Source: Shinella yambaruensis (GTDB taxonomy: Bacteria; Pseudomonadota; Alphaproteobacteria; Rhizobiales; Rhizobiaceae). Taken from it: a stretch of 64,000 nucleotides of DNA. The notes under the pieces were generated by a model that ran no database searches, was not told the origin of the DNA, and saw nothing but the letters and a program-made list of their open reading frames with translations. The translations under genes were made by a program, and so were the position numbers. The stretch is from contig NZ_JALJCK010000008.1 of assembly GCF_022899355.1 (NCBI RefSeq), forward strand, positions 124,001 to 188,000, read 5' to 3'. Positions 19,446 through 40,220 of the stretch are shown one piece after another. Position 1 is the first letter of the stretch. The number at the start of each line of letters is the position of its first letter.

Positions 19446-19483
19446 ATCAGCGTGCACCACGCCCTATCGGGCAGAACGCCCGC

Positions 19484-21114: not shown

Positions 21115-21600
21115 CTACGCCCGCCTGCGGTAGAGGAAGTAGCGCTTGCTGTCGACGGTGGCGGGCAGCGCCAGGGGCTCCAGCGCCGCGTGGTCGAGCG
21201 GCAGGCCGCTGATGGCGATGCCGCCGGCGCCGAGCGCGCGGGCGACGATGTCGGGCAGCCAGGTCAGCGTGACCGCGTCCTTGTCGTCATAGCCGGTGCC
21301 GATATCGGCGTGGACGAGCGCGGCATCCGTGCCGGCAAAGGCCCTTGCCGTCTCGACGATCTCGCCGAGCACCAGGTCGCCCGGCGGCGGCGTGGAGGAG
21401 GCATGCGCGCCGAGCGCCCGGTCGAAGGCGACGATGCGCCGGCCGGGGAATTTCTCGCGCAGGTGATCGAAGGTCCGGCCGTTGCCGAGGCCGATCTCGA
21501 GGATCGCGCCGTCCTCCGGCAATGGCAGGGCCTGCGCGACATGGTCGATGACGTCGCGCTGGGCGGACATGCGGCGGATGAAGCTTTCGAGGCGGCTCAT
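21115..21600 (-). CDS. SAM-dependent methyltransferase, class I
   Basis: 161 residues from the ATG at 21598-21600. The SAM-binding motif I is EIGLGNGRTFDHL (residues about 35-47), and motif II is FPGRRIVAFDRALG. The protein ends in a short strand (KRYFLYRRRA) and is small for the class. It lies eight bases after the UDP-sugar dehydrogenase and just before the metallophosphoesterase, so the acceptor may be a sugar or lipid head group; this is inferred from neighbours only. Confidence 0.8.
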   Translation of the reverse strand: MSRLESFIRRMSAQRDVIDHVAQALPLPEDGAILEIGLGNGRTFDHLREKFPGRRIVAFDRALGAHASSTPPPGDLVLGEIVETARAFAGTDAALVHADIGTGYDDKDAVTLTWLPDIVARALGAGGIAISGLPLDHAALEPLALPATVDSKRYFLYRRRA

Positions 21601-24947: not shown

Positions 24948-25052
24948 GGCGGCGGGTTGCCGGGGGCCTCCTCCAGCGCCGCTTTGCCCTTCTGGCGCCG
25001 CTTGCAAGGGCGGTGGGTTGGCGTGCCGGAAAGAGGCGAGGGCGCCATGACC

Positions 25053-25206
25053 ACCCCCCTCTGCCCTGCCGGGCATCTCCCCCTCAAGGGGGGAGATCGG
25101 CAAGAGGTGAAAGCCTCGCTTCATCAGCAGCGCTGGAAAGGGCGAAACGGCTCTCCATCCAATCTCCCCCCTTGAGGGGGAGATGCCCGGCAGGGCAGAG
25201 GGGGGT
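25053..25206. repeat. RIME-like palindromic repeat, family A (copy 2)
   Basis: About 154 bases bounded by ACCCCCCTCTGCCCTGCCGG and its reverse complement; the inner arms read ctccccctcaagggggg and ccccccttgagggggag. It lies downstream of the deacetylase-like gene. Confidence 0.85.
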
Positions 25207-25585: not shown

Positions 25586-26005
25586 TCAGTGCGCGGTGGC
25601 GAGCCGTTCGCCCATCACGCGCATGGTTTCGGCCATGCTGCGGGGGCAGGACGAGAGGACCTTGAGGAAGCAGTCCTTGCGGATGCGCAGTGCTTCCACG
25701 ACCGTGGAGGCCTTGACGGTGGCATTGCGGGTCGTGCCGCAAAGGATGGCGATCTCGCCGACGACCGAGCAGCTGCCGGTCGATGCGATCTTCTCGTCTC
25801 CCGAGGGCCCTTCCTTGTAGACGTCGACGACGCCCGAAAGGACGACATAGGCGGCATCGCCCTCATCGCCCTGGTGGAAGAGTTCCTGGCCTTCACGGTA
25901 GCTCACCCGGTCCGAAGCGAAGGCGAGCAGTTTCAGCTTGCCTGCATCGATGCCCGAGAACAGCGGGACCCGTCGTAACATCTGCACTTCGTCGTTCAAG
26001 ATCAT
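25586..26005 (-). CDS. cyclic-nucleotide-binding-domain protein
   Basis: 139 residues from the ATG at 26003-26005, preceded by a GAGGCGG ribosome site. The whole protein is one CAP-type beta-roll: VPLFSGIDAGKLKLLAFASD, YREGQELFHQGDEGDAAYVV, then the phosphate-binding-cassette region (CSVVGEIAILCGTTRNATVK). In the cassette, GEIAIL and RNATV match the GE...RxA pattern. There is no DNA-binding domain, so it is a stand-alone sensor or a regulatory subunit. It follows the ABC-exporter-like gene by 47 bases and is the last gene of the nine-gene block. Confidence 0.85.
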   Translation of the reverse strand: MILNDEVQMLRRVPLFSGIDAGKLKLLAFASDRVSYREGQELFHQGDEGDAAYVVLSGVVDVYKEGPSGDEKIASTGSCSVVGEIAILCGTTRNATVKASTVVEALRIRKDCFLKVLSSCPRSMAETMRVMGERLATAH

Positions 26006-26052
26006 AACAGTCAACCGCCTCGAATTCCGGTTATCTGATCACTTCATACCAG

Positions 26053-28764
26053 TCATGCTATCAGTTGCTTGTATACCGTACCGCTTTCGACGATCGTGTC
26101 GTAGGTTCCGTCTTCCACCAAACTTCCGCCATCAAAAGCAAGCACCCTTTTAAAGTGTTTTGCAAGCGGGGTATTTGACAAAACCCAGACAACAGCCGGA
26201 TTATCACCGCTCTTGGCCAGGAACGCAAGGGCGGCCTCCACGATGTGCTCCTGCAGGTGGTGGTCGACGCCCGAGAACGCACGGTTGAAGATGTAGTAGT
26301 CCGAGCGGCGGATGAGGGCGCGGGCCAGGCCCAGCTTCAGGCGCTGCAGGTTGTTCAATCGCCGGCCGCCGGCCCCGATATTCGATTCCAGCCCCAGCGC
26401 CATCAACGCGCGGTAGAGTTCCGGCCGCTTGGCCAGAAGCTCCCCGCCGATCTCCCTCAGCTTGGAAATCGCGTCGCTGAAGCGATGGTTGAGCTTGCCG
26501 AACACGATATTGTCCACCAGCGTTCCCGATGTCAGATAGGCATCCGGATTGTAACGTTCAATGTGGGCCTGGAGTTCGACCGGCAGGTTCGCGTGGAACT
26601 GGTGGCGCACCTCGACGATCTTGCGCATCAGTTTCTCGTCGAGCACGCCGAAACGGTGCCGCGGCTCGACATAGAAGAAGCTGAGCTTGATCAGCGCGAT
26701 CCGGTCCTCCTCGCTCGGTGCGGCATTGTGCCGCAGCTTCTGCAGCAGGTGCTGATAGGTCGGGATCTCCTCCGCCCGCATGAAGGTCAGCTGCTCGAAG
26801 AACGGGTGGTCGGGCGGCAGGTCCTTGAAGAGTTCCACCGTGCTCTCGGCGATGGCCTTGCCCATTTCGAACAGCGCCGTGCCGAGGCCGCTCTCGCGCA
26901 TGATGTTGCGGAAATAGGGCGTTTTGACGATCGCCTTGGTGGAGGCCTTCGGGTCGGGCATCATGCCGAAGAACAGGTTCTCGGCGACCGGCGCCTCGGT
27001 GTTGTACTCGTTGTCGCGGAACGGCACGATGAGGTTGTTGAGGTCGCGGCGGTCCAGCTCCTCGCGCAGGTCATGGCGCATCTCGACGATCTGGGCGGCG
27101 ACGTCCGGGTCGTTGTTGACCGCGATCGAGGAATGCAGCGCCAGCTGCAGCACGTCGTCGGACAGTTCCACCACGTCCAGCACGGCCATCATCGCGCCGA
27201 ACAGCCCGTCCTTGCCGTTGGCATTGAGCGTGGCGAGGTCGATCCAGTTGCCGTTGAGGTCGAAGTCCGGATTGCCGGAGCGGCGCGCCTCCAGCACGTC
27301 CCATTTGCGCTGGTCGGCGGCCTGGCCCTTGTAGGCGGCCGGCTCGATCGGCGCGTGCTTGAGGCCGTAGAGCAGGTTGTCCTTCAGGCTGCCGTGGAAG
27401 AAATAGGCCTCGGGCGAGGCATAGGAGATGCGCCGGCCGGTCACGGCCTCCGGCAGGGCGAAGAGGTCGTCGTCGCCCGCCGTCACCTTGCCGCCGGCCG
27501 GCCAGACGACGCGCGCCAGCGCCTCGGCGAGGCGATCGCCGCCGCTGGCCGCCGTGCCGATGATGGCGACGGTCTCGCCGGGGGCGATCTTGACCGTCAC
27601 ATGCTCCAAGGCCCGCCCGCCGATATCGTCGTCGACCAGCAGGTTCGTGGTGCTGAGCGGATGGTGCAGCACCGGCTCGTTCCCCGCGTCGATGGCCTGG
27701 ATCTCGGGGGCGATCATCTCGTCGGCCTCGAACTGCTCGACGACCTGCTCGTATTTGACCTGCACGTCCTGGCGCACCAGCTCCCAGTCGATCAGCTCCT
27801 TCAGCGGGCCGGGCAGTTCCTTGTAGGCGTTGATGACGGCGACGAGCTGGCCGACGTCCAGCTTGCCGACGATCGTGAGGTAGCCGCCGATGCAGTAGAA
27901 CAGGAACGGCGTCAGCTGGGCGAGGAAGTTGTTGAGGAACTTGACCAGGAATTTCCACTGGTAGATGTCGTAGCGGATCTTGAAGATGCGGCCGAGCCGG
28001 GCGGCGATGTCGGCGCGCTCGTAGTTGGAGGTGTCGTAGGCGTGGATCGTGCCGATGCCGTCGACGATCTCCGCCACGCGGCCGGCGAGCTGGCGGGCGG
28101 TGAGCTGGCGCTCGCGGCCGAGCTCGATGAGCCGGCGGCGCATGCGCGGGATGATGCCGACCTGGATGGCGGCCATGGCGAAGGCGATGAAGCCGAGCCA
28201 GAAATGCTGGATGAAGATGAAGACCAGCGCCGTCAGCGCCTGGCCGCCGAGCAGTGCCGGCTGCACGAAGGCATCCGCGGTGAAGCCGCCGAGCGGCTCC
28301 ACCTCGTCCTTGACCATCGAGGAGACCTCGCCGGCCTTGATGTGCTTGAAGTAGCGCGGCGGGAAGCGAAGGATGCGGTCGACCAGCTCGTAGCGGATGC
28401 GCCGCAGCAGCCGCTCGCCGAGACGCCCCTTGTAGGTGTTGATGAAATACTTGAACAGGCCGTTGATGATGACGAGCACGAGGAACGTCAGGCTGAGGGC
28501 GAGCAGCGAGGGCATGCGCTCCAGCGGCAGGCCGGCGAAAAGCTCGACATGGCCGAAGAACGGCAGGTCGAAGGCGATCGGCATGAAGAGCTGGGTGTTG
28601 CCGGGCTGCTCGAACCCCGTTCCCTGGATCGGGCCGTTGACGATCTGCTTGGGCAGGTCGAAGGCCATGTAGTAGGGGATCATGGACAGGGCGACGATCA
28701 GCAGGATGAAGAGCTGCTGCGGCCGGGTGTGATCCCAAATGTACCGGGCGAGACTTTTTTCCAT
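26053..28764 (-). CDS. ABC-exporter-like protein with degenerate nucleotide-binding domain
   Basis: 903 residues. The N-terminal half (about 15-370) is an ABC type-1 exporter membrane domain (RLLRRIRYELVDRILRFPPR, YFKHIKAGEVSSMV). The nucleotide-binding part has lost its key residues. The Walker A position reads GTAASGGDR (about 400), without Lys. The signature reads RRLNNLQR instead of LSGGQ (about 806). Walker B reads YYIFNRAFSGVD, with the Asp-Glu pair replaced by Asn-Arg (about 828). The H-loop position reads VLSNTP. Between them lie about 330 extra residues with repeated post-Q-loop-like pieces (HGSLKDNLLYG, APVAENLFFG, SGTLVDNIVFG). The frame is intact, so this looks like a maintained pseudo-ATPase. 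Confidence 0.85.
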   Translation of the reverse strand: MEKSLARYIWDHTRPQQLFILLIVALSMIPYYMAFDLPKQIVNGPIQGTGFEQPGNTQLFMPIAFDLPFFGHVELFAGLPLERMPSLLALSLTFLVLVIINGLFKYFINTYKGRLGERLLRRIRYELVDRILRFPPRYFKHIKAGEVSSMVKDEVEPLGGFTADAFVQPALLGGQALTALVFIFIQHFWLGFIAFAMAAIQVGIIPRMRRRLIELGRERQLTARQLAGRVAEIVDGIGTIHAYDTSNYERADIAARLGRIFKIRYDIYQWKFLVKFLNNFLAQLTPFLFYCIGGYLTIVGKLDVGQLVAVINAYKELPGPLKELIDWELVRQDVQVKYEQVVEQFEADEMIAPEIQAIDAGNEPVLHHPLSTTNLLVDDDIGGRALEHVTVKIAPGETVAIIGTAASGGDRLAEALARVVWPAGGKVTAGDDDLFALPEAVTGRRISYASPEAYFFHGSLKDNLLYGLKHAPIEPAAYKGQAADQRKWDVLEARRSGNPDFDLNGNWIDLATLNANGKDGLFGAMMAVLDVVELSDDVLQLALHSSIAVNNDPDVAAQIVEMRHDLREELDRRDLNNLIVPFRDNEYNTEAPVAENLFFGMMPDPKASTKAIVKTPYFRNIMRESGLGTALFEMGKAIAESTVELFKDLPPDHPFFEQLTFMRAEEIPTYQHLLQKLRHNAAPSEEDRIALIKLSFFYVEPRHRFGVLDEKLMRKIVEVRHQFHANLPVELQAHIERYNPDAYLTSGTLVDNIVFGKLNHRFSDAISKLREIGGELLAKRPELYRALMALGLESNIGAGGRRLNNLQRLKLGLARALIRRSDYYIFNRAFSGVDHHLQEHIVEAALAFLAKSGDNPAVVWVLSNTPLAKHFKRVLAFDGGSLVEDGTYDTIVESGTVYKQLIA

Positions 28765-28834
28765 GAAGAGCTTCTGTGCGTGAACGGCCGCTGTCGCGTG
28801 TGAAGATTATAAGACAGCCGCAATACCGCAAGAG

Positions 28835-29986
28835 CTAGGAAGTCACCCGCCGTTTTAGTAGGTCCCTCAGGATTTTCGCGGTACGATTGGCGCCATCCAG
28901 TTGCAAAACAGGCACATTTTTCTCCGTCTCGGCCTCTTCGGCCCGCAAGATTGCGTCCGCCAGCGTTTCCCCGGAAAGAATGTCCTCGCGCAGCACGACC
29001 GCCCGGCCGAGCCGTTCCAGCCGCTCGGCGCGCGCCGTCTGCTCGCTCTCGCCGCCCGAGGCGAAGGGCACCAGCACCGCGCCGCAGCCAGCCTGCAGCA
29101 CGTCGCAGACCGTGTTGTAGCCGGCCTGCGAGACCGAGAGCCTTGCCGCCGCCAGCAGGTTGCGGAAGTCGGTGCGGAAGCGCACGAGATCGACATGCGC
29201 GGGGCGCGCGGCGGACAGCTGCGCGAAATCGGCCTGCGGCAGGTTGGGACCGGTGATGACCAGCCAGCGGCCGCTGCCGGTGCGGCGGCCGGATGCCGCG
29301 AGCGCGGCCTCCACGAGGCCGGCGCCCACCGCCCCGCCGCCGGCCGAGACGACGACGTCGTAGCGTTCCGCGGCGGGTTCTGCCGCCGGGCTGCCGACGA
29401 GGCCGGTATAGACCACGCGTCCGGCAATGGCATCGGCCAGCGGAAAGGTGTCCTCCAGGCGCACGAAGGCGGGGTCGCCATGCACGAGCACCCCGTCGAA
29501 ATGGCGCAGCACGAGGTCGATCGTCTCCTCGTCGCGGCCGGGCTTGGCGCGCTCCTGCAGGATGTCGCGCAGCGAGGTGAGGAGGAGGGGACGCGGCGTG
29601 CTCGCCTCGATCGCCGCGATCAGCGGCAGGAGCTCGAAGCGCACCTGGCGGCGGCCGAAGGGGAAGGCCTCGACGATGACGATGTCGGGCCGCATGGCGT
29701 GATAGGCGGCGAGCAGCCGGTCGCGCCGCGCGGCCTTGAAGGCCTCGTCGATGACCGTGCCGTTCGCGTCGACGAGCGCGGAAAAACCGCCGTCGCCCAC
29801 CGCGATGGCCGGCAGGGCGACATGGTCGATGCCGGGGCCGGGAAAGCCGTCGACCGGCATGCCGCCGGTGACGAGGGTGACGGCAAAGCCGTCGTCGACG
29901 AGCGCGCGCACGATGCGGCTGGCGCGGGCGAGATGGCCGATGCCGAGCAGGTGCTGGACGTAGAAGAGGACGCGCGGGCCGCTCAT
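28835..29986 (-). CDS. MurG-like (GT28-type) glycosyltransferase
   Basis: 383 residues. The N-terminus GPRVLFYVQHLLGIGHLARA carries the GxGH motif of GT-B enzymes, and the C-terminal donor site reads SQAGYNTVCDVLQAGCGAVL followed by VPFASGGESEQT. It is related to the 432-residue enzyme two genes upstream. Its ATG overlaps the GT4 stop (ATGA). It should act at the inner face of the membrane on a nucleotide-sugar donor. The ABC-exporter-like gene follows after 70 bases. Confidence 0.85.
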   Translation of the reverse strand: MSGPRVLFYVQHLLGIGHLARASRIVRALVDDGFAVTLVTGGMPVDGFPGPGIDHVALPAIAVGDGGFSALVDANGTVIDEAFKAARRDRLLAAYHAMRPDIVIVEAFPFGRRQVRFELLPLIAAIEASTPRPLLLTSLRDILQERAKPGRDEETIDLVLRHFDGVLVHGDPAFVRLEDTFPLADAIAGRVVYTGLVGSPAAEPAAERYDVVVSAGGGAVGAGLVEAALAASGRRTGSGRWLVITGPNLPQADFAQLSAARPAHVDLVRFRTDFRNLLAAARLSVSQAGYNTVCDVLQAGCGAVLVPFASGGESEQTARAERLERLGRAVVLREDILSGETLADAILRAEEAETEKNVPVLQLDGANRTAKILRDLLKRRVTS

Positions 29987-31443
29987 CGGCGGGCTCCGGT
30001 CGTAAACAGCGCCTTCAGCTGCGCGATGCTGGTATGGTGGTCGAAGCTCCCGCGCACCTTCGCCTCGGCGGCCGCGCCGAGCCTGTGGCGAAGGGCGGGA
30101 TCGCGGATCGCCCGCTCCAGCGCGCGGGAAAACGCCGCCGCATCCTCGGAGGGCACGAGCAGGCCGTTCTCCTCGGTCTCGAAAAGCTCGGGAATGCCGG
30201 AAATGTCGGTCGCCACGCAGGCGAGCTGCTGGCTTGCCGCCTCCACCAGCACGTTCGGCAGGCCGTCGCGGTCGCCGTCCGGCGTGATGCGGCAGGCGAG
30301 CGCGAAGATATCGGCGCGGCGATAGGCGGCGAGCACGTCCTTCTGGTCGACCGCGCCGAGCCAGGTGATCTTTTGCGCGATGCCGAGTTCGTCGGCGAGC
30401 TTTTGCAGCTTCGCCCGCTCCCCGCCGTCGCCGGCATGGACGAAACGCCAGTGCAAATCCCCGGGAAGCCGGGCGAGGGCCTCCAGCAGGATGTCATAGC
30501 CCTTCTTCGGCACCGCGCGCCCGACGCTGATGATGGTGACGGGATTTTCCGGGTCGGAGCCGTCGCGGGGCGGGCGGGGGTTTGCGGCCCCGGCGCAGTC
30601 GCAGGCTTCCGGATGCGGGGCGTGGCGTGCGTCACCCCCCTCTGGCCTGCCGGCCATCTCCCCCTCAGGGGGGGAGATTGGCTGGGAGTGAAACCCTTGC
30701 TCAATCGGCAACGTCGGAGATGGGCGGGACGTTTCCCCATCCGATCTCCCCCCCTGAGGGGGAGATGGCCGGCAGGCCAGAGGGGGGTAGGCCCCGTCCT
30801 CCAGCGGCGGAAAGCGGTCGAGATCGAGGCCGTGGTAGCTGAGATGCACCCGGTCGCGGTTCGGGCCGGCGAGCGCCTGGAGGTGGGCGTGGCCGGATTT
30901 GGTGCAGGTCACCGCCCAGTCGGCGGTCGAGAGCTTGTCGGCGAGTTCCCAGTCCTTCGACGTCCAGATGTCCTTGGCATGGGCCGAGACCGAGAAGGGC
31001 AGGGCGAGCATGCGGGCCGCGTAATTGGCGACGGAGGCGGGCGTGTGGATGAAATGGGCGTGCAGCCAGCCGCCGGCCTCGGGAAATTCACCGACGAGCA
31101 CCGCCGCCTGGCCGAAGCGGCGGAACCGGTTGCGGCTGAAGTCCCGCGGCAGGTCCTTCAGGAACTGGCGGATGGCCGCGCCGAAGCCGGGCGCGCGAAG
31201 ACTCTTGAACAGGCCGCGCAGCACGCGCAAAGGCTCTTCATGCAGGTATTCCGGCAGGTAGGACACCGGGGCCTTGATCTCGTCGTGCACGGGATGGCGT
31301 TTCTTGTCCGTCGGGCGGCGGAGCGAGACGAGCACGAGGTCGAGCCCGGCGCGCTCCAGCCCGAGCAGTTCCTGGGCGATGAAGGTCTCCGAAAGGCGCG
31401 GATAGCCCTTCAGCAGCACGACGATCTTATGCGGCAGCGACAC
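29983..31443 (-). CDS. GT4-family glycosyltransferase carrying an in-frame RIME insertion
   Basis: 486 residues from a GTG at 31441-31443. Residues about 1-215 are the acceptor domain (LKGYPRLSETFIAQELLGLE, WLHAHFIHTPASVANYAA). Residues about 300-480 are the donor domain (IISVGRAVPKKGYDILLEAL, EX7E-like LPNVLVEAASQQLACVATDI). The linker between them contains about 52 residues rich in Pro and Gly, encoded by the RIME copy at 30634-30788. Without it the protein would be about 434 residues. The reading frame passes through the repeat without a stop, and the insertion falls between the two Rossmann domains, so activity may be kept. Confidence 0.85.
   Translation of the reverse strand: MSLPHKIVVLLKGYPRLSETFIAQELLGLERAGLDLVLVSLRRPTDKKRHPVHDEIKAPVSYLPEYLHEEPLRVLRGLFKSLRAPGFGAAIRQFLKDLPRDFSRNRFRRFGQAAVLVGEFPEAGGWLHAHFIHTPASVANYAARMLALPFSVSAHAKDIWTSKDWELADKLSTADWAVTCTKSGHAHLQALAGPNRDRVHLSYHGLDLDRFPPLEDGAYPPLACRPSPPQGGRSDGETSRPSPTLPIEQGFHSQPISPPEGEMAGRPEGGDARHAPHPEACDCAGAANPRPPRDGSDPENPVTIISVGRAVPKKGYDILLEALARLPGDLHWRFVHAGDGGERAKLQKLADELGIAQKITWLGAVDQKDVLAAYRRADIFALACRITPDGDRDGLPNVLVEAASQQLACVATDISGIPELFETEENGLLVPSEDAAAFSRALERAIRDPALRHRLGAAAEAKVRGSFDHHTSIAQLKALFTTGARR
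30634..30788. repeat. RIME-like palindromic repeat, family A (copy 3), inside a coding sequence
   Basis: A 155-base element bounded by ACCCCCCTCTGGCCTGCCGG and its reverse complement. It differs from the intergenic copies mainly by GG/CC swaps in the arms. It lies wholly within the GT4 gene and is translated on the minus strand as a Pro/Gly-rich linker (for example RPSPPQGGRSDG and PISPPEGEMAGR). Confidence 0.88.
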
Positions 31444-31459
31444 GGCGGGCGTGGCCTCT

Positions 31460-32758
31460 TCAAGCGACGGAGGGCGGGGTGAGCTCCCGCGCGGAAAGCT
31501 CCTCGCCGACGATGCGGGCGATGTTGCGCAGGCCTTCGAGCCGGAGCTCCGGGTTGCCGCTGGAGGGCGGGCGGCGTTCCGGCAGGGTCCTCAGCGCGGC
31601 GGCAAGGCGCGCGGGATCGGCCGATTCCTCCGGCAGCAGCATGTCGACGAGGCCGAGCTCGGCGGCGCGGGTGGCGCGGATGAGCTGTTCCTCGCGCGGC
31701 TGCACGCGCGGCACGATGAGCGCCGGCTTGTCGAAGGAGAGGATCTCGCAATAGGTGTTGTAGCCGCCCATCGCCACCACCGCCTTCGCGCCGGCGACGA
31801 GATCCTCCATGCGCGAATCGAACTCGATCACCTCGACATAGGGGATCTTCGCGGCTTCCTGCGTCAGCTTGGTGCGCTCGCCCTGCGGCATGTAGGGGCC
31901 GAGCACGATGAGGGCGCGGTGGGTGAGGCCGGCATCGTGCCGGTAGGCGCGCAGCACGTCCTCCACCAGCTCCGCCCCGTCGCCGCCGCCGCCGGTGGTC
32001 ACCAGGATGTAGTCGCCCGACGGCTGGTACTGGGCGCGGTCCATCTTCAGCGCGTTGCGCTGCAGGAAGCCGACGAAGTTCAGCCTGTCGCGCACGCTCT
32101 GCGGCACGTCGAGGCCGACCAGCGGATCGTAGAAATCCGGCGGGCCGTAGACCCAGATGTCGTCGTAGAACCGCGCGATCTTGTGCATGACGTCCTTGCG
32201 CTTCCACTCGGCGTCGAGCAGGTGCGGGGAATCCATCACCTCGCGCAGGCCGAGGATCAGCCGCGTGCCGCGGCCCTTCAGGTAGGCGAGCGTCTCCTCC
32301 ACCTCGCCGGAAAGGCCCATCGGCTCCTTGTCGATGATGAAGATGTCCGGATTGAACGTCTCGGCCGTGTGGCGGATGATCGACCGGCGCATGGTCAGCG
32401 TGTCCTCCAGGTCGATATGGCGCTCCAGCGAGGTGTATTCGCCGTTGCGCAGCTTGATGACGCTGGGGATCTTCACGAAGTCGACGCGGGCGCGATAATC
32501 GAAGGCGCCGGCGATCGTCGCGCCGGAGATGATGAGGACGTTGAGGCCGCGATATTCCTCCACCAGCGCATGGGCGATCGTGCGGCAGCGGCGCAGGTGC
32601 CCGAGGCCGAACGTGTCGTGGCTGTACATGAGGATGCGGGCGTGCTCGAAACTGCGGCTCAAGGGCACGACCTCCCGGTATCCGCCGGGCCCGCCGTCGA
32701 GGAGGGGCGATTCTTCTGCATTCGTAATCCCGATTTCACTTATAGGGGTCAGCCGCAT
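31460..32758 (-). CDS. MurG-like glycosyltransferase (paralogue of the gene at 28835)
   Basis: About 432 residues from the ATG at 32756-32758; the start is uncertain because this ATG lies 23 bases inside the preceding permease gene and other in-frame starts exist. The core begins HARILMYSHDTFGLGHLRRC (GxGH motif), and the donor site reads AMGGYNTYCEILSFDKPALI with VPRVQPREEQLIRA. The conserved block ILGLREVMDSPHLL is shared in pattern with its paralogue. It starts the glycosyltransferase part of the operon immediately after the YejE-like permease. Confidence 0.83.
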   Translation of the reverse strand: MRLTPISEIGITNAEESPLLDGGPGGYREVVPLSRSFEHARILMYSHDTFGLGHLRRCRTIAHALVEEYRGLNVLIISGATIAGAFDYRARVDFVKIPSVIKLRNGEYTSLERHIDLEDTLTMRRSIIRHTAETFNPDIFIIDKEPMGLSGEVEETLAYLKGRGTRLILGLREVMDSPHLLDAEWKRKDVMHKIARFYDDIWVYGPPDFYDPLVGLDVPQSVRDRLNFVGFLQRNALKMDRAQYQPSGDYILVTTGGGGDGAELVEDVLRAYRHDAGLTHRALIVLGPYMPQGERTKLTQEAAKIPYVEVIEFDSRMEDLVAGAKAVVAMGGYNTYCEILSFDKPALIVPRVQPREEQLIRATRAAELGLVDMLLPEESADPARLAAALRTLPERRPPSSGNPELRLEGLRNIARIVGEELSARELTPPSVA

Positions 32759-33911
32759 CACGCAGTCCATCGCCAAGGAAGTTGAAAGCCAGAATGACCA
32801 AAACGACGGGTACCACCGGAAAGAGCAGCCAAGGATAGAGAGCGATAATGTTGATGCTGCGGGCTTCCGTCAGCAGGATGCCCCAACTGGTGATGGGCGG
32901 CCTGAGGCCGAGCCCGAGGAAACTCAGTGCCGTCTCCCCGAGGATCATGCCCGGAATGGTCAGCGTCGCGCTGGCGATCAGGTGGGACATGAAGCCGGGT
33001 ATGAGATGGCGGCGGATGATGCGGGCGCTGCCCGCGCCCATGACCTGGGCCGCCAATACATAATCTTCCTCGCGCAAGGCAAGAAGTTTCGAGCGCACGG
33101 CGCGCGCAAGTCCGGTCCAGTCGAGCATGCCGAGGATGATCGTAATGCCGATATAGACGAGAATGGGGCTCCAGGTGACGGGGATGATCGCGGCGAGCGC
33201 CATCCACAGGGGAATACTGGGGATCGATTGCAACACCTCGATGACGCGCTGCACGACGAGGTCGAAGACGCCGCCGTGATAGCCGGCAAGCCCGCCGATG
33301 ACGATGCCCAGCACGAAGCTCATGGCAACGCCGAGCGCGCCGATGGTGAGCGAGATGCGCGCGCCGTAGAGGATGCGCGAGAGCATGTCGCGCCCCAGCC
33401 GGTCGGTGCCGAGGAAGAAGAACTGGCCGTCTTTCGCCGGGCAGACGAGGTGGACGTCGGAGGTGAAGAGGCCCCAGAACCTGTACCTGTCGCCGCGGCA
33501 GAAGAAGCGCAGCTTCTGCACGTCCGTCCTGTCGTCGGTGTAGACGCGCCGGAGGTTGTCCATGTCGAGCGTCATCTTCTGGCCGTAGACGAAGGGACCG
33601 ACGAACCGGCCCTCATGCATGAAGCGCAGGGTCTGCGGCGGGGAATAGATGAAGTCGATGTTGCGGGTGTGCAGGTTGTAGGGCGCCAGGAACTCGCTGA
33701 CGGCGATCATCAGGTAGATGACGATGAGGAAGATGCCGGAGACCAGCGCCATCCGGTGGCGGCGGAACTGCCACCACATCAGCTGGAACTGCGAGGCCTG
33801 GGCGACCTTCTTCAGCTCCTCGGTCTTGCGCTCGGCGGCATAGGGATCGAACGGCTTGTCCGAGACGAAATGGCCGAGCGGGGCGCCGGGTTCGGGAAGG
33901 GGCGTCTTCAC
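32736..33911 (-). CDS. ABC transporter permease, YejE/OppC-like
   Basis: 391 residues. An N-terminal TM (about 56-74) is followed by a long periplasmic loop, then the binding-protein-dependent permease domain (about 190-385), beginning LGTDRLGRDMLSRILYGARI. The EAA loop reads VMGAGSARIIRRHLIPGFMS. The order of genes and the fused ATPase match YejABEF importers, which take up peptides and peptide-like compounds in E. coli. It overlaps the partner permease upstream by four bases. Confidence 0.9.
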   Translation of the reverse strand: MKTPLPEPGAPLGHFVSDKPFDPYAAERKTEELKKVAQASQFQLMWWQFRRHRMALVSGIFLIVIYLMIAVSEFLAPYNLHTRNIDFIYSPPQTLRFMHEGRFVGPFVYGQKMTLDMDNLRRVYTDDRTDVQKLRFFCRGDRYRFWGLFTSDVHLVCPAKDGQFFFLGTDRLGRDMLSRILYGARISLTIGALGVAMSFVLGIVIGGLAGYHGGVFDLVVQRVIEVLQSIPSIPLWMALAAIIPVTWSPILVYIGITIILGMLDWTGLARAVRSKLLALREEDYVLAAQVMGAGSARIIRRHLIPGFMSHLIASATLTIPGMILGETALSFLGLGLRPPITSWGILLTEARSINIIALYPWLLFPVVPVVLVILAFNFLGDGLRDAADPYK

Positions 33912-34906
33912 TTGCGGGCGCCTCCGCCGAGCCGGATGCGCGGGTCGAGGATGGCAAGCGCGATATCGGAGACCAGCACGCCGATGACGGTCAGGAAGGC
34001 GAGGAACATCAGGAAGGAGCCGGCGAGATACATGTCCTGCGTCTGCAGGGCCTTGATCAGCATGGGACCGGTCGTCTCGAGCGACAGCACGATGGCGGTC
34101 ACCTCCGCGCCGGAGATGATCGAGGGCAGGATGGAGCCGATGTCGGAGATGAAGAAGTTGAGCGACATGCGCAGCGGATATTTGGTGAGGACCCGCATCG
34201 GATGCAGGCCCTTGGACCGCGCGGTCACCACATATTGCTTGTTGAGCTCGTCGAGCAGGTTGGCGCGCAGGCGCCGCACCATCGCCGCCGTGCCCGCCGT
34301 GCCGATGATGATGACCGGGATCCAGATATGCGAGAGGATGGAGCGGAACTTTTCCCAGCTCATCGGCGCGCCGAGGAACTGGCGGTCCATCAGCCCGCCG
34401 ATCGAGACGCCGAACCAGATATTGGCGAAATACATGACGACCAGCGCCAGCATGAAGTTCGGCACGGCGATGCCGATGAGGCCGGCGAGCGTCAGGCCGT
34501 AGTCGCCCCAGCTGTACTGGTGGGTGGCGGAGTAGATGCCGATCGGGAAGGCGATGAGCCAGGTGAAGATGATCGTGACGAACGAGACCAGCACCGTCAG
34601 CCAGAGCCGGTCGCCCACCACCTCGGAGACGGGCAGGCGGTATTCGAAGGAATAGCCGAAATCGCCGGTGAGCATGCCGCCGACCCAGTAGACATAGCGC
34701 AGCGCCGGCGGCTTGTCGAAGCCGTAGCGCTCGCGCAGCTCCTCGATCTCGGCCATGTCGGTGGCCTCGCCCATGGCGCGCAGCTCGGCGATGTAGCTCT
34801 CGAAATAGTCGCCCGGCGGCAGTTCGATGATGGTGAAGACCAGCACCGAGATGAGCGCCAGCGTCGGAACCATGACGGCGATGCGCCAGAGGATGTAGCG
34901 GATCAT
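33908..34906 (-). CDS. ABC transporter permease, YejB/OppB-like
   Basis: 332 residues from the ATG at 34904-34906 (MIRYILWRIAVMVPTLALIS). Six TM helices. The EAA motif region reads ARSKGLHPMRVLTKYPLRMS. It forms the transmembrane channel with the OppC-like protein encoded by the next gene, which overlaps it by four bases. A RIME copy lies in the gap to the binding-protein gene. Confidence 0.9.
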   Translation of the reverse strand: MIRYILWRIAVMVPTLALISVLVFTIIELPPGDYFESYIAELRAMGEATDMAEIEELRERYGFDKPPALRYVYWVGGMLTGDFGYSFEYRLPVSEVVGDRLWLTVLVSFVTIIFTWLIAFPIGIYSATHQYSWGDYGLTLAGLIGIAVPNFMLALVVMYFANIWFGVSIGGLMDRQFLGAPMSWEKFRSILSHIWIPVIIIGTAGTAAMVRRLRANLLDELNKQYVVTARSKGLHPMRVLTKYPLRMSLNFFISDIGSILPSIISGAEVTAIVLSLETTGPMLIKALQTQDMYLAGSFLMFLAFLTVIGVLVSDIALAILDPRIRLGGGARK

Positions 34907-34942
34907 CGGGCGGGCTCCTGGGCAGCGCGTGTGATGGTCAGC

Positions 34943-35098
34943 ACCCCCCTCTGCCCTGCCGGGCATCTCCCCCACAGGGGGGGAGATTGGATGGAGTGGG
35001 GGGCCTGCCTCACTGCAACATGGCGATGTGAGCCATGGCCCGGCCTCTTGCCGATCTCCCCCCCTGTGGGGGAGATGCCCGGCAGGGCAGAGGGGGGT
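34943..35098. repeat. RIME-like palindromic repeat, family A (copy 4)
   Basis: 156 bases bounded by ACCCCCCTCTGCCCTGCCGG and its reverse complement, placed inside the transporter operon between the binding-protein gene and the first permease gene. In the mRNA it would form a long hairpin and could set relative expression of the binding protein and permeases. Confidence 0.85.
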
Positions 35099-35132
35099 AA
35101 TGCGGCGTTGCACCCCATGTTCGCAACCGCCA

Positions 35133-37037
35133 TCACGCCTCCTCCTCGTACCAGAACGTGTCCGGCATGTAGACGCCGAGGAAGCTGGTCGGCTGGAAGC
35201 CGCAGAGGGCCTTTTCCGGCATGTTGCGCAGCCGGCGCGACCGCACGACGGGCTGCGAGATGCCGTTGACGGTGCCGATGGTGAAGACCTGGTCGGCGTG
35301 GTGGGCGAGCATGTCGTGCCAGATCGCCGCGCGCTCCTCCTCCGTCGTCGTCATTTCCCAGGCGGCGAGCTTGTCGACGAGATATTGCACCTCGGGCATG
35401 TCCGGCGGCTCGCCCTTGGTCTTCACGGTCGCGTAATACATGCCCCAGACCGGCCACTGGTACTGGTCGTCGGCGCTCGGGGCGAGCTCGGCGGGCGACA
35501 TTTCCGGCGTCGGCACGCCGTTGTCGAGCCCGTACCAGACGGACATCACCACCTCGCCGCCGATGGCGCGGCTGCGGAAGATGTCGCGCTGGGAGACGCG
35601 CACGAAGAGGCCGAGGCCGATCTCGCGGAAATAGTCGGTGACGAGCTCCAGCACGTCGGTTTCCAGCGTGCTCTCCCCGGCGCTCTCGATGACGACATGG
35701 GCGGGGCGGCCGTCCGGCAGGAGGCGCGTGCCTTCCTCGTCGCGCTTGTCGAGGCCGGCCGCGTCGAGCAGGCGGTTGGCTTCCTCCGGGTCATAGCCGG
35801 CATAGGCCCTGGCATAGTCCGGCTTGAAGAGGGGGCTTTCGGGCAGCACCGTGTTGGCGCTTTCCTGGCCGAGGCCGTAGAACACGGCCTTGTTGATCTC
35901 CGTGCGGTTGATGGCGAGCGACATCGCCCGGCGCACGCGCACGTCGCGCAGCATGTCGCGCCAGCCCTTGTCGCCGCAGTTGAGATTGGGGATCAGGGCG
36001 ACGCGCGAGCCGAGCGTGCGCTTCCACAGCATCACCTTGATCGGATACATCGTCTCTGCGTTCTTCAGCAGCGTGTAGTCGGTGAAGTCGAGATTGGCGA
36101 GCTGGAGGTCGCTCTCGCCCGTCGCCGTCTTGGCCGAGATGAGGTCCGGCGAGGAGACGTTCAGCACCAGCCGGTCGACATAGGGCAGCTGCGTCCCGTT
36201 CTCGTCGACGCGGTGGAAGAACGGATTGCGCTCGAAGATGAACTGCTCGGCCGGCGGTGCGGTGCGCGGCCGCCAGGCCTCCAGCGTCGGCAGGTCCGGG
36301 TTTTCCGGGCGCGTCTGGCGCGACATCTTGATGTGCAGGCCGCGCCAGTCGTCGACGCGCTGCGTCTTGATGTGCTTTTCCAGCTCCTCCGCGGTCTGGA
36401 ACTTCTTGTGGAACTGCCGCATGTAGGCGGACGGCAGCGCCAGCACCAGCGGAATGGGCGAGGCGAGCTTCGGCAGGAAGTCCGGGATCGGCTTCTCCCA
36501 GGTGTAGCGCACCGTGACGGGGTCGATCACCTCGAAGGCCGGCGGCTTGCCCTCGACGAGCAGGTCGGTCGGTGGGCCGCCCTTCAGGAGCTCGCGGTTG
36601 AGGATGACCTCCTCCCAGCAATAGCGGAAATCCTCCGCCGTGAAGGGATCGCCGCTCGACCATCTGTGCCCTTCGCGCAGGCGGAAGGTGAAGATGCGCT
36701 CCTCCTCCACCGTGAAGCTCTCGAGGATGTCCGCCTGGAGCTTCAGGTCCCGGTCGTAGCCGACGAGGCGCGAATAGCTGTTGATCGGCACGAGGCGCAC
36801 GTCGCGCTGGCCGCCGATCAGGATGCGCAGCCTGCCGCCCTGGATGCCGGGGGCACCGCCGAGCGCGGCGGTGTCGATGACGCGCGGCACCTTCGGCAGC
36901 CGCTCGGCGACCGGCGGCAGCTCGCCCGCCGCGATCTTCTCCTTGAAATAGGCGGTGTCGCCGGCGGCGGCGCCGCGGGCAAGGCCCGGAACGAAGGCGG
37001 TGGCCAGGAGGCCGAGGGTGGCGCGGCGCGTGATCAC
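35133..37037 (-). CDS. extracellular solute-binding protein family 5, YejA-like
   Basis: 634 residues from a GTG at 37035-37037 that overlaps the ATPase stop. The N-terminus [20 protein letters not shown] is a signal peptide with a Tat-like twin arginine. The family-5 core follows: FTVEEERIFTFRLREGHRWS, GDPFTAEDFRYCWEEV, DVRVRRAMSLAINRTEINKA. Length and composition are close to YejA of the microcin C/peptide importer rather than to OppA or DppA. It would capture the imported ligand in the periplasm. Confidence 0.9.
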   Translation of the reverse strand: MITRRATLGLLATAFVPGLARGAAAGDTAYFKEKIAAGELPPVAERLPKVPRVIDTAALGGAPGIQGGRLRILIGGQRDVRLVPINSYSRLVGYDRDLKLQADILESFTVEEERIFTFRLREGHRWSSGDPFTAEDFRYCWEEVILNRELLKGGPPTDLLVEGKPPAFEVIDPVTVRYTWEKPIPDFLPKLASPIPLVLALPSAYMRQFHKKFQTAEELEKHIKTQRVDDWRGLHIKMSRQTRPENPDLPTLEAWRPRTAPPAEQFIFERNPFFHRVDENGTQLPYVDRLVLNVSSPDLISAKTATGESDLQLANLDFTDYTLLKNAETMYPIKVMLWKRTLGSRVALIPNLNCGDKGWRDMLRDVRVRRAMSLAINRTEINKAVFYGLGQESANTVLPESPLFKPDYARAYAGYDPEEANRLLDAAGLDKRDEEGTRLLPDGRPAHVVIESAGESTLETDVLELVTDYFREIGLGLFVRVSQRDIFRSRAIGGEVVMSVWYGLDNGVPTPEMSPAELAPSADDQYQWPVWGMYYATVKTKGEPPDMPEVQYLVDKLAAWEMTTTEEERAAIWHDMLAHHADQVFTIGTVNGISQPVVRSRRLRNMPEKALCGFQPTSFLGVYMPDTFWYEEEA

Positions 37038-38944
37038 GAGGAGAGTTCCCGCATGTCGGCATTCTTGCGGGCGAGCACGAAATGGCCGCCGCCGAGATCG
37101 GCCGGCGCCAGGCCCTCGCTGCCCTCCTCGTCGCGGAAGACGCGCGCCCAGCTCTCGCGCGAGACGGCGCTGGTCCGGCCGGCCGTCTCGAAGTTCAAGG
37201 GGCGCTCGAGGTCGGGGAAGGGCACGGCATCGAGCAGCGCCCGCGTATAGGGATGCACCGGCGCGGTCATGATGATCTCGCGCGGCGCGATCTCGACGAT
37301 GCGCCCGGCCCACATCACGGCGACCCGGTCGGCCATGTAGTCGACAACGGCGAGGTTGTGCGAGATGAAGAGATAGGTGAGCCCGAGATCCTTCTGGAGG
37401 TCCTTGAGGAGGTTGAGGATCTGCGCCTGCACGGAGACGTCGAGTGCGGAGACCGGCTCGTCGCAGATGATCATGCTGGGCCCCAGCGCCAGCGCCCGGG
37501 CGATGCCGATGCGCTGGCGCTGGCCGCCGGAAAAGCTGTGCGGATAGCGCTTCAGCGAGGCCTCGTCGAGGCCGATGGCGCGGATCAGCGCCTTGGAGGC
37601 CATCCTGCGCTTGGCCGCATCGCCATAGTCGTGGATGTCGAGGGGCTCGCGCAGGATGTCGCCGACCGTCATGCGCGGCGAGAGCGAGGATTGCGGGTCC
37701 TGGAACACCATCTGCATGCGCGTGCGCAGCGATTGCAGCTCCGCGCCGCTGGCATTCAAGACGTCGACCGGCCCCTTGCCGTCGTCGAACAGCACGGAGC
37801 CGGCATCCGGCTTTATGGCGCGCATCAGGATCTTGCTGACGGTGGTCTTGCCGCAGCCGCTTTCGCCGACGAGGCCGAGACATTCGCCGCGCCGGATGTC
37901 GAAGCTGACGCCGTCGACGGCCGGCCGGGGCTTTTCCTTGTGCCGGCCCGGCAGGCCCCAGTTGTCCTTGCGGGTCGCGAAGGTCTTGCTGAGGTCGCGG
38001 ACCGACAGGATGATATCCGGCCCGGTGCGGGCCTGGTATTTCTTGGAAAGCAGGCTGTCCTGGTCGACCTCGATCTCGCGCAGCGGCTTCAGCCGGTCGC
38101 CGCGCTGCATGCCGAAATGCGGGATCGCCGCCATCAGGCCCTTGAGATAGGGATGGGCGGGCCGGTGGAAGATCGTCTCGACCGGCCCCGCCTCCATGAT
38201 CTCGCCCTGGTAGATCACCACCACCTCGTCGGCGATGTTGGCGACGACGCCGAGATCGTGCGTGACGAGCAGCACGGCCATGTCCATCTGCTGCTGCAGG
38301 TCGCGCAGGAGTTTGAGGATCTGTGCCTGGATGGTCACGTCGAGCGCCGTGGTCGGCTCGTCGGCGATGAGGAGCGCCGGGCCGCAGACGAGCGCCATGG
38401 CGATCATCGCGCGCTGGCGCATGCCGCCCGACAGCTCGAAGGAGTACATGTCGTAGACCTTGCGCGGGTCGGCAAAGCCGACGCGCGACAGCATGTCCTC
38501 GCAGCGTTCGCGCATCTCCGCGCCGGCAAGGCCGCTGTGGATGGCAAGGGACTCGCTGATCTGGTCGCCGATCGTGTGCAGCGGCGAAAACGAGGTCATC
38601 GGCTCCTGGAAGATCATGCCCATGCGCCCGCCGCGGATGGAGCGGATCTTCCGGCCGTCGCGCGGCAGGGGCAGGATGTCGATGGGGCCCTCGTCGGAGA
38701 GCGGGTCGTCGAAGAGGATCCTGCCGGAAACGCGCGCGGTCGGCGGCTGCAGGCCCATGGCGGTCTGGCTGATGACGGACTTGCCGGAGCCGGATTCGCC
38801 CACCAGGGCGGTCACCTTTCCGGGCAACACCCTGAGACTTGCGCCCCTGACGGCGGTGATCCTCGCGCCCATCAGGGAGAAGGAGACGTGCAGGTCTTCG
38901 ATCCGCAGCAGGTCCCTCGGCCGGCGCCTCGCATTCGAGTTCAT
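37034..38944 (-). CDS. ABC transporter ATP-binding protein with two ATPase domains, YejF-like
   Basis: 636 residues from the ATG at 38942-38944. Two full nucleotide-binding domains: the first has GESGSGKS (about 47), LSGGMRQ and [12 protein letters not shown]; the second has GESGCGKTT (about 358), FSGGQRQR and [11 protein letters not shown]. Each is followed by the oligopeptide-type C-terminal signature ([15 protein letters not shown]). It energises the two permeases. It is the first gene of the nine-gene block and is divergent from the GT32 gene across 247 bases. Confidence 0.93.
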
Positions 38945-40154: not shown

Positions 40155-40220
40155 GGCATTTTCTGGCCTGCCGGATATCTTCCCTGAGGGGCAGGCTACT
40201 TGCCTGTGGACGGAAACCGT

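Follow-up and report, generated by a model that had tools for sequence, protein, structure and literature searches.

A conserved alphaproteobacterial gene system combining glycosyltransferases, an importer and an exporter-type ABC protein with a cyclic-nucleotide-binding partner

Related importers and the block in Shinella

The YejABEF importer of microcin C and peptides comprises a double ATPase, two permeases and an SBP_bac_5 binding protein. In Sphingomonas sp. A1, the cluster-C binding protein SPH1118 is encoded beside the Opp-type importer genes SPH1114-SPH1116; excerpts of the published work report that it binds pectin (PMC9314435), that the importer genes look like oligopeptide-importer genes and that peptide medium induces them (PMC7055323), and that protein and importer serve pectin chemotaxis and uptake, perhaps of peptides as well (PMC7055323, PMC9314435). 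The same excerpts do not mention a glycosyltransferase or counterparts of the exporter-type protein (pABC) and cyclic-nucleotide-binding protein (CNB) considered here.

Components related to both systems occur in a contiguous run of nine minus-strand open frames on a Shinella plasmid, at 25586-38944 of the window, the 64,000-nucleotide stretch of S. yambaruensis DNA that was analysed (Table 1). Reading of the frames and Pfam searches found the expected domains, in agreement with the gene order, domain calls and coordinates of a previous sequence-only reading. Spacing recomputed from the coordinates likewise reproduces its description of overlaps or short gaps interrupted by a single 226-base gap, between A and B. 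F/A, B/E and GT4a/GTb each overlap by 4 bases, and gaps of 16, 70 and 38 bases separate GTa-GT4a, GTb-pABC and pABC-CNB; E and GTa overlap by 41 bases if GTa begins at a TTG, or lie 73 bases apart if the GTa start follows the annotation of peSHIWSC3, a near-identical plasmid. Predicted promoters numbered 2 against 1.5 expected, and terminators 10 against 6.4 (sd 2.9). The conserved unit extends past CNB, and past the limit of the earlier description, to two plus-strand genes (23119-24947) encoding GT4b and a deacetylase-like protein of NodB/CE4 fold, DAC.

Table 1. Genes and repeat copies of the Shinella locus, in window coordinates.
Feature	Coordinates	Strand	Basis
F: double ABC ATPase, Opp/Yej-type importer	37034..38944	-	Pfam ABC_tran x2 + oligo_HPY
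A: periplasmic binding protein	35133..37037	-	Pfam SBP_bac_5, PDB sequence search; start by correspondence with peSHIWSC3
RIME-like repeat, A-B gap	34942..35099		blastn within window
B: permease of importer	33908..34906	-	Pfam BPD_transp_1
E: permease of importer	32736..33911	-	Pfam BPD_transp_1 + OppC_N
GTa: MurG/MJ1255-like glycosyltransferase	31460..32776	-	Pfam Glyco_tran_28_C; peSHIWSC3-annotated start about 32662
GT4a: GT4 glycosyltransferase with in-frame RIME-like insert	29983..31443	-	Pfam Glycos_transf_1
RIME-like repeat inside GT4a coding sequence	30633..30789		blastn within window; comparison with L036, L037
GTb: MurG-like glycosyltransferase	28835..29986	-	Pfam Glyco_tran_28_C; TIGR01133 48.9 vs 250 bits
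pABC: ABC-exporter-type membrane domain + degenerate, insert-expanded NBD	26053..28764	-	Pfam, model, motif counts
CNB: stand-alone cyclic-nucleotide-binding domain; pABC-fused in some relatives	25586..26014	-	Pfam cNMP_binding
RIME-like repeat between CNB and DAC	25052..25206		blastn within window
DAC: NodB/CE4-fold deacetylase-like protein, convergent with block	24213..24947	+	AF2, Foldseek, motifs
GT4b: second GT4 glycosyltransferase	23119..24216	+	Sequence; Pfam on relative; peSHIWSC3 annotation
UGDH: nucleotide sugar dehydrogenase	21609..22952	-	Clustering, domain search, peSHIWSC3 annotation; start by correspondence with peSHIWSC3
MT17: SAM methyltransferase	21115..21600	-	Methyltransf_17 in relative; peSHIWSC3 annotation
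MPE: calcineurin-like metallophosphoesterase	19484..21109	-	Clustering, domain search, peSHIWSC3 annotation

The repeat previously placed in the A-B gap was recovered there. Further copies, including that in frame within GT4a, had gone unremarked; besides those in Table 1, they lie at 19290-19446 and about 1644-1787. The GT4a insert region is empty in the relatives L036 and L037. An Rfam search of positions 18000-42000 gave no match, and 'RIME' is the label of the sequence-only reading.

The description of the importer as YejABEF-like holds for its composition, and two Walker A motifs occur in 24 of 25 high-scoring F frames from other loci. The components nevertheless fall far below the curated yej and microcin C cut-offs, with 482.9 against 834 bits for YejF, 107.3 against 445 for YejB and 114.4 against 439 for the microcin C permease, while F exceeds those of some general dipeptide and nickel ATPase models. 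The only solved chains matched by window A at E <= 1e-20 in a PDB sequence search are 5ipw, labelled as oligopeptide-binding, putative, and two forms of SPH1118 (E 5e-57). With the family profile, alpha-galactoside-binding 6epy (8e-50) and chitin-oligosaccharide-binding 1zty (8e-25) precede dipeptide-binding 1dpe (3e-20). Residue R466 of SPH1118 is kept in 15 of 16 sequences and an aromatic residue stands at W594 in all 16; most of the residues with which SPH1118 contacts its ligand are substituted or have no counterpart. A resembles, in sequence, the pectin-binding protein more than the classical peptide binders. The earlier proposal of peptide import is weakened by these nearest relatives and the missed yej models, and retains support from the dipeptide models passed by F and from the reported oligopeptide-type character and peptide induction of the SPH1118 importer genes (excerpt of PMC7055323).

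The exporter-type protein, its partner and linked enzymes

The membrane domain of pABC has the transmembrane fold of an exporter (Pfam ABC_membrane, 95.3 bits, cut-off 28), whereas its nucleotide-binding domain (NBD) falls below the ABC_tran cut-off (23.3 against 25 bits). This NBD had been called dead, and its motifs are indeed degenerate: GTAASGGD occupies the Walker A position and IFNR the Walker B/catalytic position, such that neither Walker motif is intact and the Lys, Asp and Glu of the ATP site are all replaced. The NBD of this strain is predicted to have little or no capacity for ATP binding and hydrolysis, and the ATPase activity of pABC has presumably been lost. Among 104 pABC frames with scores over 690 bits, each from a different locus though including close relatives, the pattern GxxxxGK[ST] occurs in 3, the Walker A lysine is retained in 37, Asn replaces the Walker B Asp in 76 and a Glu is present at the catalytic position in 45. 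The signature helix is well conserved, and within a large insert in the NBD the Asn of an N-x-x-[YF]-G element recurs at three places in 96 frames. The predicted model is moderate (pLDDT 73, pTM 0.60); with it, Foldseek matches PCAT1 at E 4e-13 with a TM-score of 0.36, and scores by query to half-transporters are low, at about 0.33-0.39.

In 87 of 103 loci CNB is encoded on the pABC strand, no more than 2.5 kb downstream of pABC, and in a further 7 the two form a single fusion protein, so that joint action of CNB and pABC is very probable; in 2 others CNB lies elsewhere in the locus, and in the remaining 7 it was not found. Fusions additionally occur in Azospirillum lipoferum 4B and Ruegeria TM1040. 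The window CNB has 142 residues and a single Pfam match (PF00027, residues 37-122), with no DNA-binding helix-turn-helix detected by Pfam after the domain, which sets it apart from CRP-type transcription factors. Ligand binding is predicted from the phosphate-binding cassette consensus of 90 members, VGEIAIL...RTATV, in which the Glu is conserved in at least 85% and the Arg in at least 95%; this consensus, like those for DAC, the cyclases and the MBL-fold hydrolase, was drawn up under per-family score floors.

DAC has a confident model (AF2, pLDDT 94.6) with the CE4/NodB deacetylase fold (Foldseek to the CE4 enzyme 7fbw, E 2e-8, TM 0.59/0.74) and strongly conserved DDD, HGxxxH-like and PPWNR stretches that resemble metal-site motifs, from which deacetylase activity is predicted; its relative in L036 has no Pfam match. 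The GTa profile matched no solved chain at E <= 0.01. Clustering of 44 sequences yielded 23 gene families recurring in three or more, and part of the relatives add a UDP-sugar dehydrogenase, a polysaccharide lyase (PF14099, 6 of 44 sequences), class III cyclases and an MBL-fold hydrolase to the unit; MPE is linked in 9 of 44. Pfam identified no Wzx/Wzy or Wzm/Wzt family among the nine block genes and ten linked-family members.

Two linked class III cyclase families, of nine members each, keep the metal-binding Asp, GDG and N-x3-R motifs (Pfam Guanylate_cyc), and of ten more distant frames matching the cyclase profiles all nine that were tested are Guanylate_cyc. The linked MBL family also keeps its motifs. 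The MBL protein, perhaps a phosphodiesterase, scores higher with the ribonuclease Z model (85.6 against 293 bits) than with the cyclic-nucleotide phosphodiesterase model (42.8 against 400), below cut-off in both cases. The window has no linked cyclase or MBL gene. Elsewhere in the Shinella genome, other contigs encode a CyaC-like cyclase and a DUF3095 protein, and no MBL match was found at E <= 1e-20. DUF3095 carries DIVGST and FGGDGA stretches, and its hhalign match to class III cyclases is weak (probability 12.8 percent, E 0.0022).

Distribution across the Alphaproteobacteria

Of 26 named loci, from Rhizobiales and Rhodobacterales, 15 share the nine-gene order (L056, of 3.7 kb, was excluded from locus counts). 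Among 385 alphaproteobacterial genomes, pABC is found in about a third (130), GTa in 126 and SBP, the binding protein, in 126, or 124 once G116 and G291, with paralogue-level matches only, are dropped. Relatedness ignored, the three coincide almost without exception: pABC and GTa are both present in 124 genomes, occur alone in 6 and 2 and are both absent from 253; for pABC and SBP the corresponding numbers are 120, 10 and 4, and 251. In 33 of the 124 genomes the two genes lie more than 40 kb apart or on different contigs, which in part may reflect assembly breaks. Four near-complete genomes (G104, G229, G270, G326) have pABC but lack both GTa and SBP. The comparison for co-occurrence is the broader MBL family (overlap 0.62): 118 of the 130 genomes with pABC have an MBL homologue, as do 61 of the 255 that lack it. 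The contig set, relatives and class-wide sample partly overlap.

Of 35 flanks, 32 encode the importer components F, B and E in the next 9.5-10.5 kb past the GT/DAC run, and 30 encode A too; of the 34 loci listed, L110, L127 and L144 were left out of this extension. In L110 SBP is far from GTa, and in L206 the importer lies in the flank without directly adjoining DAC; more generally, importer placement relative to the glycosyltransferases varies between lineages, and some genomes keep the parts apart. The tie previously proposed between importer, glycan synthesis and cyclic-nucleotide protein is supported by this distribution: the groups are adjacent in many relatives and co-occur when apart, and importer and glycosyltransferase/ABC genes, far from being rarely adjacent, are commonly neighbours. 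Distance correlations over 52 loci (pABC-GTa r 0.82, pABC-CNB 0.70, all pairs 0.33-0.82) were calculated without species-tree control and are not used as evidence.

Two symbionts, Sinorhizobium meliloti and Rhizobium leguminosarum, carry the system, and near-complete islands occur in Mesorhizobium WSM1497 (by annotation) and on pSymB of S. meliloti 2011 (by profile). Excerpts of work on S. meliloti report that smb20804 and smb20805 affect K polysaccharide (PMC5539429), that a sequence variant carried by SMb20811 does not seem to matter (PMC6180224) and that SMb20813 is an msbA homologue (PMC10945364); the pSymB record, which has no gene table, does not link these numbers to the system locus, and no conclusion here draws on them.

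A proposed glycan pathway and its relation to known systems

The block is best read, with a probability of slightly over one half (about 0.53), as the form that a single conserved system takes in Shinella, one in which an oligosaccharide or short glycan is made, trimmed and taken back under cyclic-nucleotide control exerted through pABC. GTa, GT4a, GT4b and GTb would build the chain in the cytoplasm and DAC would strip acetyl groups; where present, UGDH would provide a uronic-acid donor and the polysaccharide lyase would cleave the product, fragments of which the F-A-B-E importer would bring back into the cell. pABC, its ATP site largely lost, would be the membrane element, its state set by cyclic nucleotide on CNB, either docked as a separate subunit or fused. 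In some relatives the linked cyclases and MBL-fold hydrolase would write, and perhaps erase, the signal. We infer the order of this chemistry, the acidic nature of the glycan, gating by CNB and the direction of any transport through pABC. A more far-reaching version, offered tentatively and as doubtful, is that pABC-CNB represents a novel class of ABC-fold membrane proteins in which control by cyclic nucleotide replaces the ATP cycle, and which handle a glycan as a gated flippase, channel or scaffold; together with the cyclases and MBL hydrolase it would constitute a post-translational second-messenger pathway for glycan export or recycling across the Alphaproteobacteria. The control of cellulose and alginate by c-di-GMP is a counterpart of such a pathway.

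If A instead binds a peptide or muropeptide, the locus could couple import of a peptide or cell-wall ligand to export of a small glycan by pABC, helped by an active ATPase. This would suit an Opp/Yej-type importer, the label of 5ipw and several family-profile matches labelled peptide-binding, the dipeptide and nickel models passed by F and the induction of the SPH1118 importer in peptide medium (excerpt of PMC7055323). It is made rather unlikely by the pectin binding of the nearest functionally studied binding protein (excerpt of PMC9314435), by the ranking of 6epy and 1zty above 1dpe, and by the 23 recurring families, among which a domain search of part recognised no further ABC exporter. A further alternative is that pABC works as an ATP-driven exporter, normal or slow, with motif decay tolerated in Rhizobiales and CNB a simple activity switch: the lysine and glutamate retained in part of the frames and the well-kept signature helix would be expected, but the scarcity of GxxxxGK[ST], the prevalent Asp to Asn change and the wholly replaced ATP-site residues of the window protein render it unlikely.

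Mere neighbourhood, by chance or through a shared envelope theme, with no single function, would explain why importer placement differs by lineage and why some genomes hold the parts apart, and the co-occurrence overlap is without a matched control family; yet co-occurrence survives the loss of close linkage in the 33 genomes described above, part of them perhaps assembly breaks, and such an explanation seems quite improbable. A Pycsar-like phage defence, with an infection-triggered cyclase signal and pABC-CNB as membrane effector, is more improbable still. PADLOC matches CNB to the PycTIR model (E 1.8e-10) and a linked Mesorhizobium cyclase to PycC (E 1.9e-17), but these matches fall in shared superfamily domains, and a system that co-occurs with glycosyltransferases and importer, comes with cyclases of several types and spans the class does not resemble a compact defence island.

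The sequence-only reading knew of no described system of this composition, and none was found among the matches listed from an open-licence library with queries of which some addressed the whole system and others were narrow in their terms; the system, of about eleven core genes and with pABC as marker in 130 of 385 sampled Alphaproteobacteria, appears to be undescribed and to lack a name, a known product and a known signal. If the glycan reading is true, cyclic nucleotides gain a direct, non-transcriptional membrane target in these bacteria, and pABC provides a natural case of an ABC-exporter fold operating largely without ATP. A defined effector would make some S. meliloti adenylate cyclases testable, and what the system produces may be a surface or periplasmic glycan that has escaped recognition.

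The excerpted PMC10463352 counts 28 adenylate cyclases in S. meliloti and calls their signalling chains unclear. One of these cyclases, the redox-responsive CyaC, shares Fer2 and Guanylate_cyc domains with a family of linked cyclases present in 8 of the 44 clustered sequences (domains from one member); according to the same excerpt its gene, smc01818, adjoins cycR, outside the system locus. Pycsar anti-phage systems have a class III cyclase and a CNB domain in common with the present system, which differs in its accompanying glycan and import genes; no other defence model matched among the ten proteins scanned with PADLOC. TIGR03896 bacteriocin-type transport-associated proteins, whose name implies an association with transport, also have a CNB domain, but the window CNB lies far below their cut-off (25.1 against 161 bits). 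With type IV ABC exporters such as PCAT1, TmrAB, MsbA and ChvA, pABC shares the membrane domain and a signature-like helix, and it is unlike them in its degenerate Walker motifs, its large NBD insert and its attached CNB domain.

Composition and conservation of the unit

The contig carrying the window is 348,706 bases long, and peSHIWSC3 of Shinella sp. WSC3-e, a complete plasmid of 348,572 bases, is near-identical to it (pABC identity 99.9 percent); hence a Shinella plasmid is the likely source of the window. The sequence-only reading had listed nine minus-strand genes here, and all nine frames are open, with domains that match its list: importer genes F (double ATPase), A (binding protein) and B and E (permeases), the MurG-like glycosyltransferases (GTs) GTa and GTb, the GT4-family GT4a, the ABC-exporter-like pABC and the cyclic-nucleotide-binding CNB. 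The 903 aa of pABC give a good Pfam match to the ABC transmembrane domain and a sub-threshold one to the nucleotide-binding domain (NBD). CNB, the last gene of the block, encodes 142 aa with one cyclic-nucleotide-binding domain, and a Pfam search found no second domain. The repeat region of GT4a varies between relatives: it is occupied throughout in Shinella lacus (L035) and in part in peSHIWSC3 (L171) and L034, almost nothing stands there in L033, and nothing in L036 and L037; 81 matching genome places are listed for the repeat, many of which are both strands of one palindrome.

Coordinates of features in the window and in L172, a locus on S. meliloti 2011 pSymB
Position	Strand	Feature	Remarks
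10465-13863		1132-aa protein joining MFS, acyltransferase and AMP-binding domains	counterpart annotated on peSHIWSC3 as acyl-[ACP]--phospholipid O-acyltransferase
14053-19156	minus	five genes in a run, downstream of a metallophosphoesterase	peSHIWSC3 annotation in order: hypothetical, GNAT, hypothetical, ThiF-family, hypothetical
23119-24216	plus	GT4b (GT4 glycosyltransferase)	convergent with the nine-gene block
24213-24947	plus	DAC (NodB/CE4-fold deacetylase-like)	convergent with the nine-gene block
30633-30789		RIME-like palindromic repeat	in frame within GT4a, between its two domains
39189-41923	opposite to F	DXD-type glycosyltransferase (weak match) and a second UDP-sugar dehydrogenase	immediately upstream of F; homologues of the glycosyltransferase adjoin F in loci L041 and L044 too
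L172:2-4357		export-type genes by eye only: polysaccharide flippase, outer-membrane export protein, initiating sugar transferase	about 812-816 kb of pSymB, ~6 kb upstream of the island
L172:13485-14696		DUF3095 protein	DIVGST and FGGDGA motifs

Neighbour clustering and profile maps identify GT4b and DAC as further regular members of the unit. Pfam gave no match for the relative of DAC tested; the DAC model (pLDDT 94.6) has the CE4 deacetylases 7fbw, 2cc0 and 3rxz among its closest solved folds. The locus sets used for the different counts share part of their members. A pABC scan of named bacterial genomes yielded 26 loci, in which the nine proteins were then placed by tblastn; the full order F-A-B-E-GTa-GT4a-GTb-pABC-CNB was recovered in 15, belonging to the Rhizobiales (four Shinella, three Sinorhizobium, Rhizobium sp. 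18065 and one Rhizobiales bacterium) and to the Rhodobacterales (three Paracoccus, Rhodobacter maris, Kandeliimicrobium roseum and one uncultured Rhodobacteraceae). The three Sinorhizobium have a gene on the opposite strand between GTb and pABC. Among 60 alphaproteobacterial loci sampled, GTa adjoins pABC divergently in 40, and the run DAC-GTb-GT4b-GT4a-GTa is complete and divergent from pABC-CNB in 28. The next 9.5-10.5 kb past this run were studied in 35 flanks, from 31 of the 34 class loci having GTb or DAC and four from relatives: F, B and E are present in 32, A too in 30, and all four are absent from this distance in L179, L205 and L207. By annotation, one island of Mesorhizobium WSM1497 combines the importer, pABC and CNB with three GTs and a further GT4; a polysaccharide deacetylase family protein, an MBL-fold hydrolase, a cyclase-domain protein, a nucleotide sugar dehydrogenase and DUF3095 lie in it as well. 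In R. leguminosarum WSM1325 the importer and three GTs stand together with pABC, CNB, a cyclase and a dehydrogenase, and the similar island on S. meliloti 2011 pSymB includes a polysaccharide lyase (by profile).

The association of pABC, GTs and importer proposed from the window alone is also borne out at the level of whole genomes. Across 385 Alphaproteobacteria genomes, the pABC profile is positive in 130 (E <= 1e-80), GTa is found in 126, and SBP, the family of A, in 126, or 124 once two with only paralogue-level scores are dropped. Both pABC and GTa occur in 124 genomes, pABC only in 6, GTa only in 2 and neither in 253 (Fisher p 8.7e-91, relatedness ignored); the corresponding figures for pABC and SBP are 120, 10, 4 and 251. 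Some exceptions are incomplete assemblies (G315, G352, G131 and G085, respectively 63, 78, 82 and 86 percent complete), while four genomes that are 97 to 100 percent complete (G104, G229, G270 and G326) have pABC without GTa or SBP. Close linkage (same contig, at most 40 kb apart) of pABC and GTa is missing in 33 of the 124 genomes: five have the two far apart on a single contig and 28 have them on separate contigs, some of these maybe through assembly breaks. Linkage alone therefore does not account for the overlap. This pattern of co-occurrence suggests that pABC, GTa and SBP are mutually dependent. In a phylum sample, pABC was detected in 31 of 388 genomes (E <= 1e-60), 30 of them Alphaproteobacteria; the sole match outside the class covers the transmembrane part only, and in four of the 30 (G343, G565, G572 and G687) the match is limited to the second half of the protein. 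Two atypical copies were also seen: genome G004 has a second and more diverged pABC on contig 17 (L075), accompanied by a CNB of its own and a class III cyclase, no linked GTs being seen in 19.8 kb, and L049 of Rhizobium populisoli, whose other pABC locus is L041, has a copy without visible linked CNB or GTs.

The degenerate exporter-like protein and its probable cyclic-nucleotide-binding partner

The window pABC has other residues in place of the Walker A Lys, the Walker B Asp and the catalytic Glu. Of 104 pABC sequences, 37 retain the Walker A Lys, and the residue after this position is mostly Glu or Asp across the family; GxxxxGK[ST] occurs only in three (L118, L164 and L168), and Asn replaces the Walker B Asp in 76, the signature helix being well kept. 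The N-x-x-[YF]-G element of ordinary exporters is single and follows the Q-loop; in pABC it stands at three NBD places, and 96 of 104 sequences have the Asn in every one of them, as though part of the NBD had undergone two duplications. The AlphaFold model of pABC is moderate (pLDDT 73, pTM 0.60), its best PDB matches being the type IV exporters PCAT1, TmrAB and MsbA (E about 1e-13 to 1e-11, low TM-scores). Given the degenerate NBD, these exporter-type matches and the lack of any other recognised exporter gene in the recurring neighbour families, we favour a pABC homodimer whose state would be set by CNB instead of ATP.

In 87 of 103 loci CNB follows pABC on the same strand, at most 2.5 kb downstream; in seven it is fused to the pABC C-terminus, in two it stands elsewhere in the locus, and in the other seven it was not found. 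Pfam too detects a fused CNB domain in the pABC of Azospirillum lipoferum 4B and Ruegeria TM1040. The domain stands alone in some species and is part of pABC in others, which argues strongly that CNB and pABC would form a physical complex. In the phosphate-binding cassette of 90 CNB members, the Glu is kept in at least 85 percent and the Arg in at least 95 percent.

Possible sources of the signal are linked in part of the relatives. The linked cyclases carry the metal Asp, GDG and N-x3-R elements, and ten further frames in distant flanks match cyclase profiles, with Guanylate_cyc in all nine that were domain-searched. One linked cyclase family has a ferredoxin domain ahead of the cyclase domain, a likeness to CyaC, which carries a ferredoxin-type cluster. 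Passages of PMC10463352 describe CyaC as redox-responsive. The DUF3095 proteins, an unnamed Pfam family, show DIVGST and FGGDGA motifs resembling those of a diverged class III cyclase; comparing their profile with the linked cyclases gave a probability of 12.8 percent (E 0.0022). An MBL-fold protein that keeps HxHxDH is present in 118 of 130 pABC genomes versus 61 of 255 others; none of its model matches reaches the cut-off, the best being ribonuclease Z, with a cyclic-nucleotide phosphodiesterase scoring lower. Cyclase and MBL-fold protein are both absent from the window locus. Other contigs of the Shinella genome encode a CyaC-like cyclase (37 percent identity) and a DUF3095 protein, with no MBL match at E <= 1e-20, and the Shinella signal would have to originate outside the locus.

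Ligand, proposed working and known systems

The importer looks like a Yej/Opp type. The only solved-structure matches of the window A at E <= 1e-20 are 5ipw and SPH1118, a pectin-binding protein of Sphingomonas sp. A1 according to passages of PMC9314435. Of the ligand residues given in those passages, R466 is kept in 15 of 16 SBP members and W594 is aromatic (12 Trp, 4 Phe); N53 is Arg in 15 of 16, and most others checked are changed or lacking. A UDP-sugar dehydrogenase and a PF14099 lyase are linked to the unit in part of the loci. From these linked genes and the SPH1118 relationship, we take an oligosaccharide, which may be acidic, to be a likelier ligand of A than a peptide. An importer of peptides or cell-wall ligands coupled to small-glycan export, as first proposed, would agree with the genes beside SPH1118, which PMC7055323 reports to be similar to those of oligopeptide importers and to respond to peptide medium by induction; set against the pectin-binding relative and the sugar-related neighbours, it seems unlikely.

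The reading preferred here, drawn from sequence comparison and structure prediction throughout, is of oligosaccharide synthesis and recycling under cyclic-nucleotide control through pABC-CNB, to which we assign a probability of about 0.53. The GTs and DAC would build and modify a glycan chain, which pABC, controlled by cyclic nucleotide via CNB, would move or present at the inner membrane; the lyase or ordinary turnover would free fragments, and F-A-B-E would recover them. The earlier joining of importer, glycan and cyclic nucleotide is thus retained in outline, with sugar replacing peptide as ligand, a wider unit, and CNB placed on pABC itself.

No described system of this composition was found among the matches listed from open-licence PubMed Central papers, in line with the sequence-only reading. 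For pABC, CNB and the GTs, no NCBIfam model reached its cut-off among the matches listed (in two longer lists, the best 25 of 60 and the best 25 of 26). The block differs from Wzx/Wzy and Wzm/Wzt systems in that none of these families is listed by Pfam for its genes. The parts of the system are known folds, whose control principle could be new.
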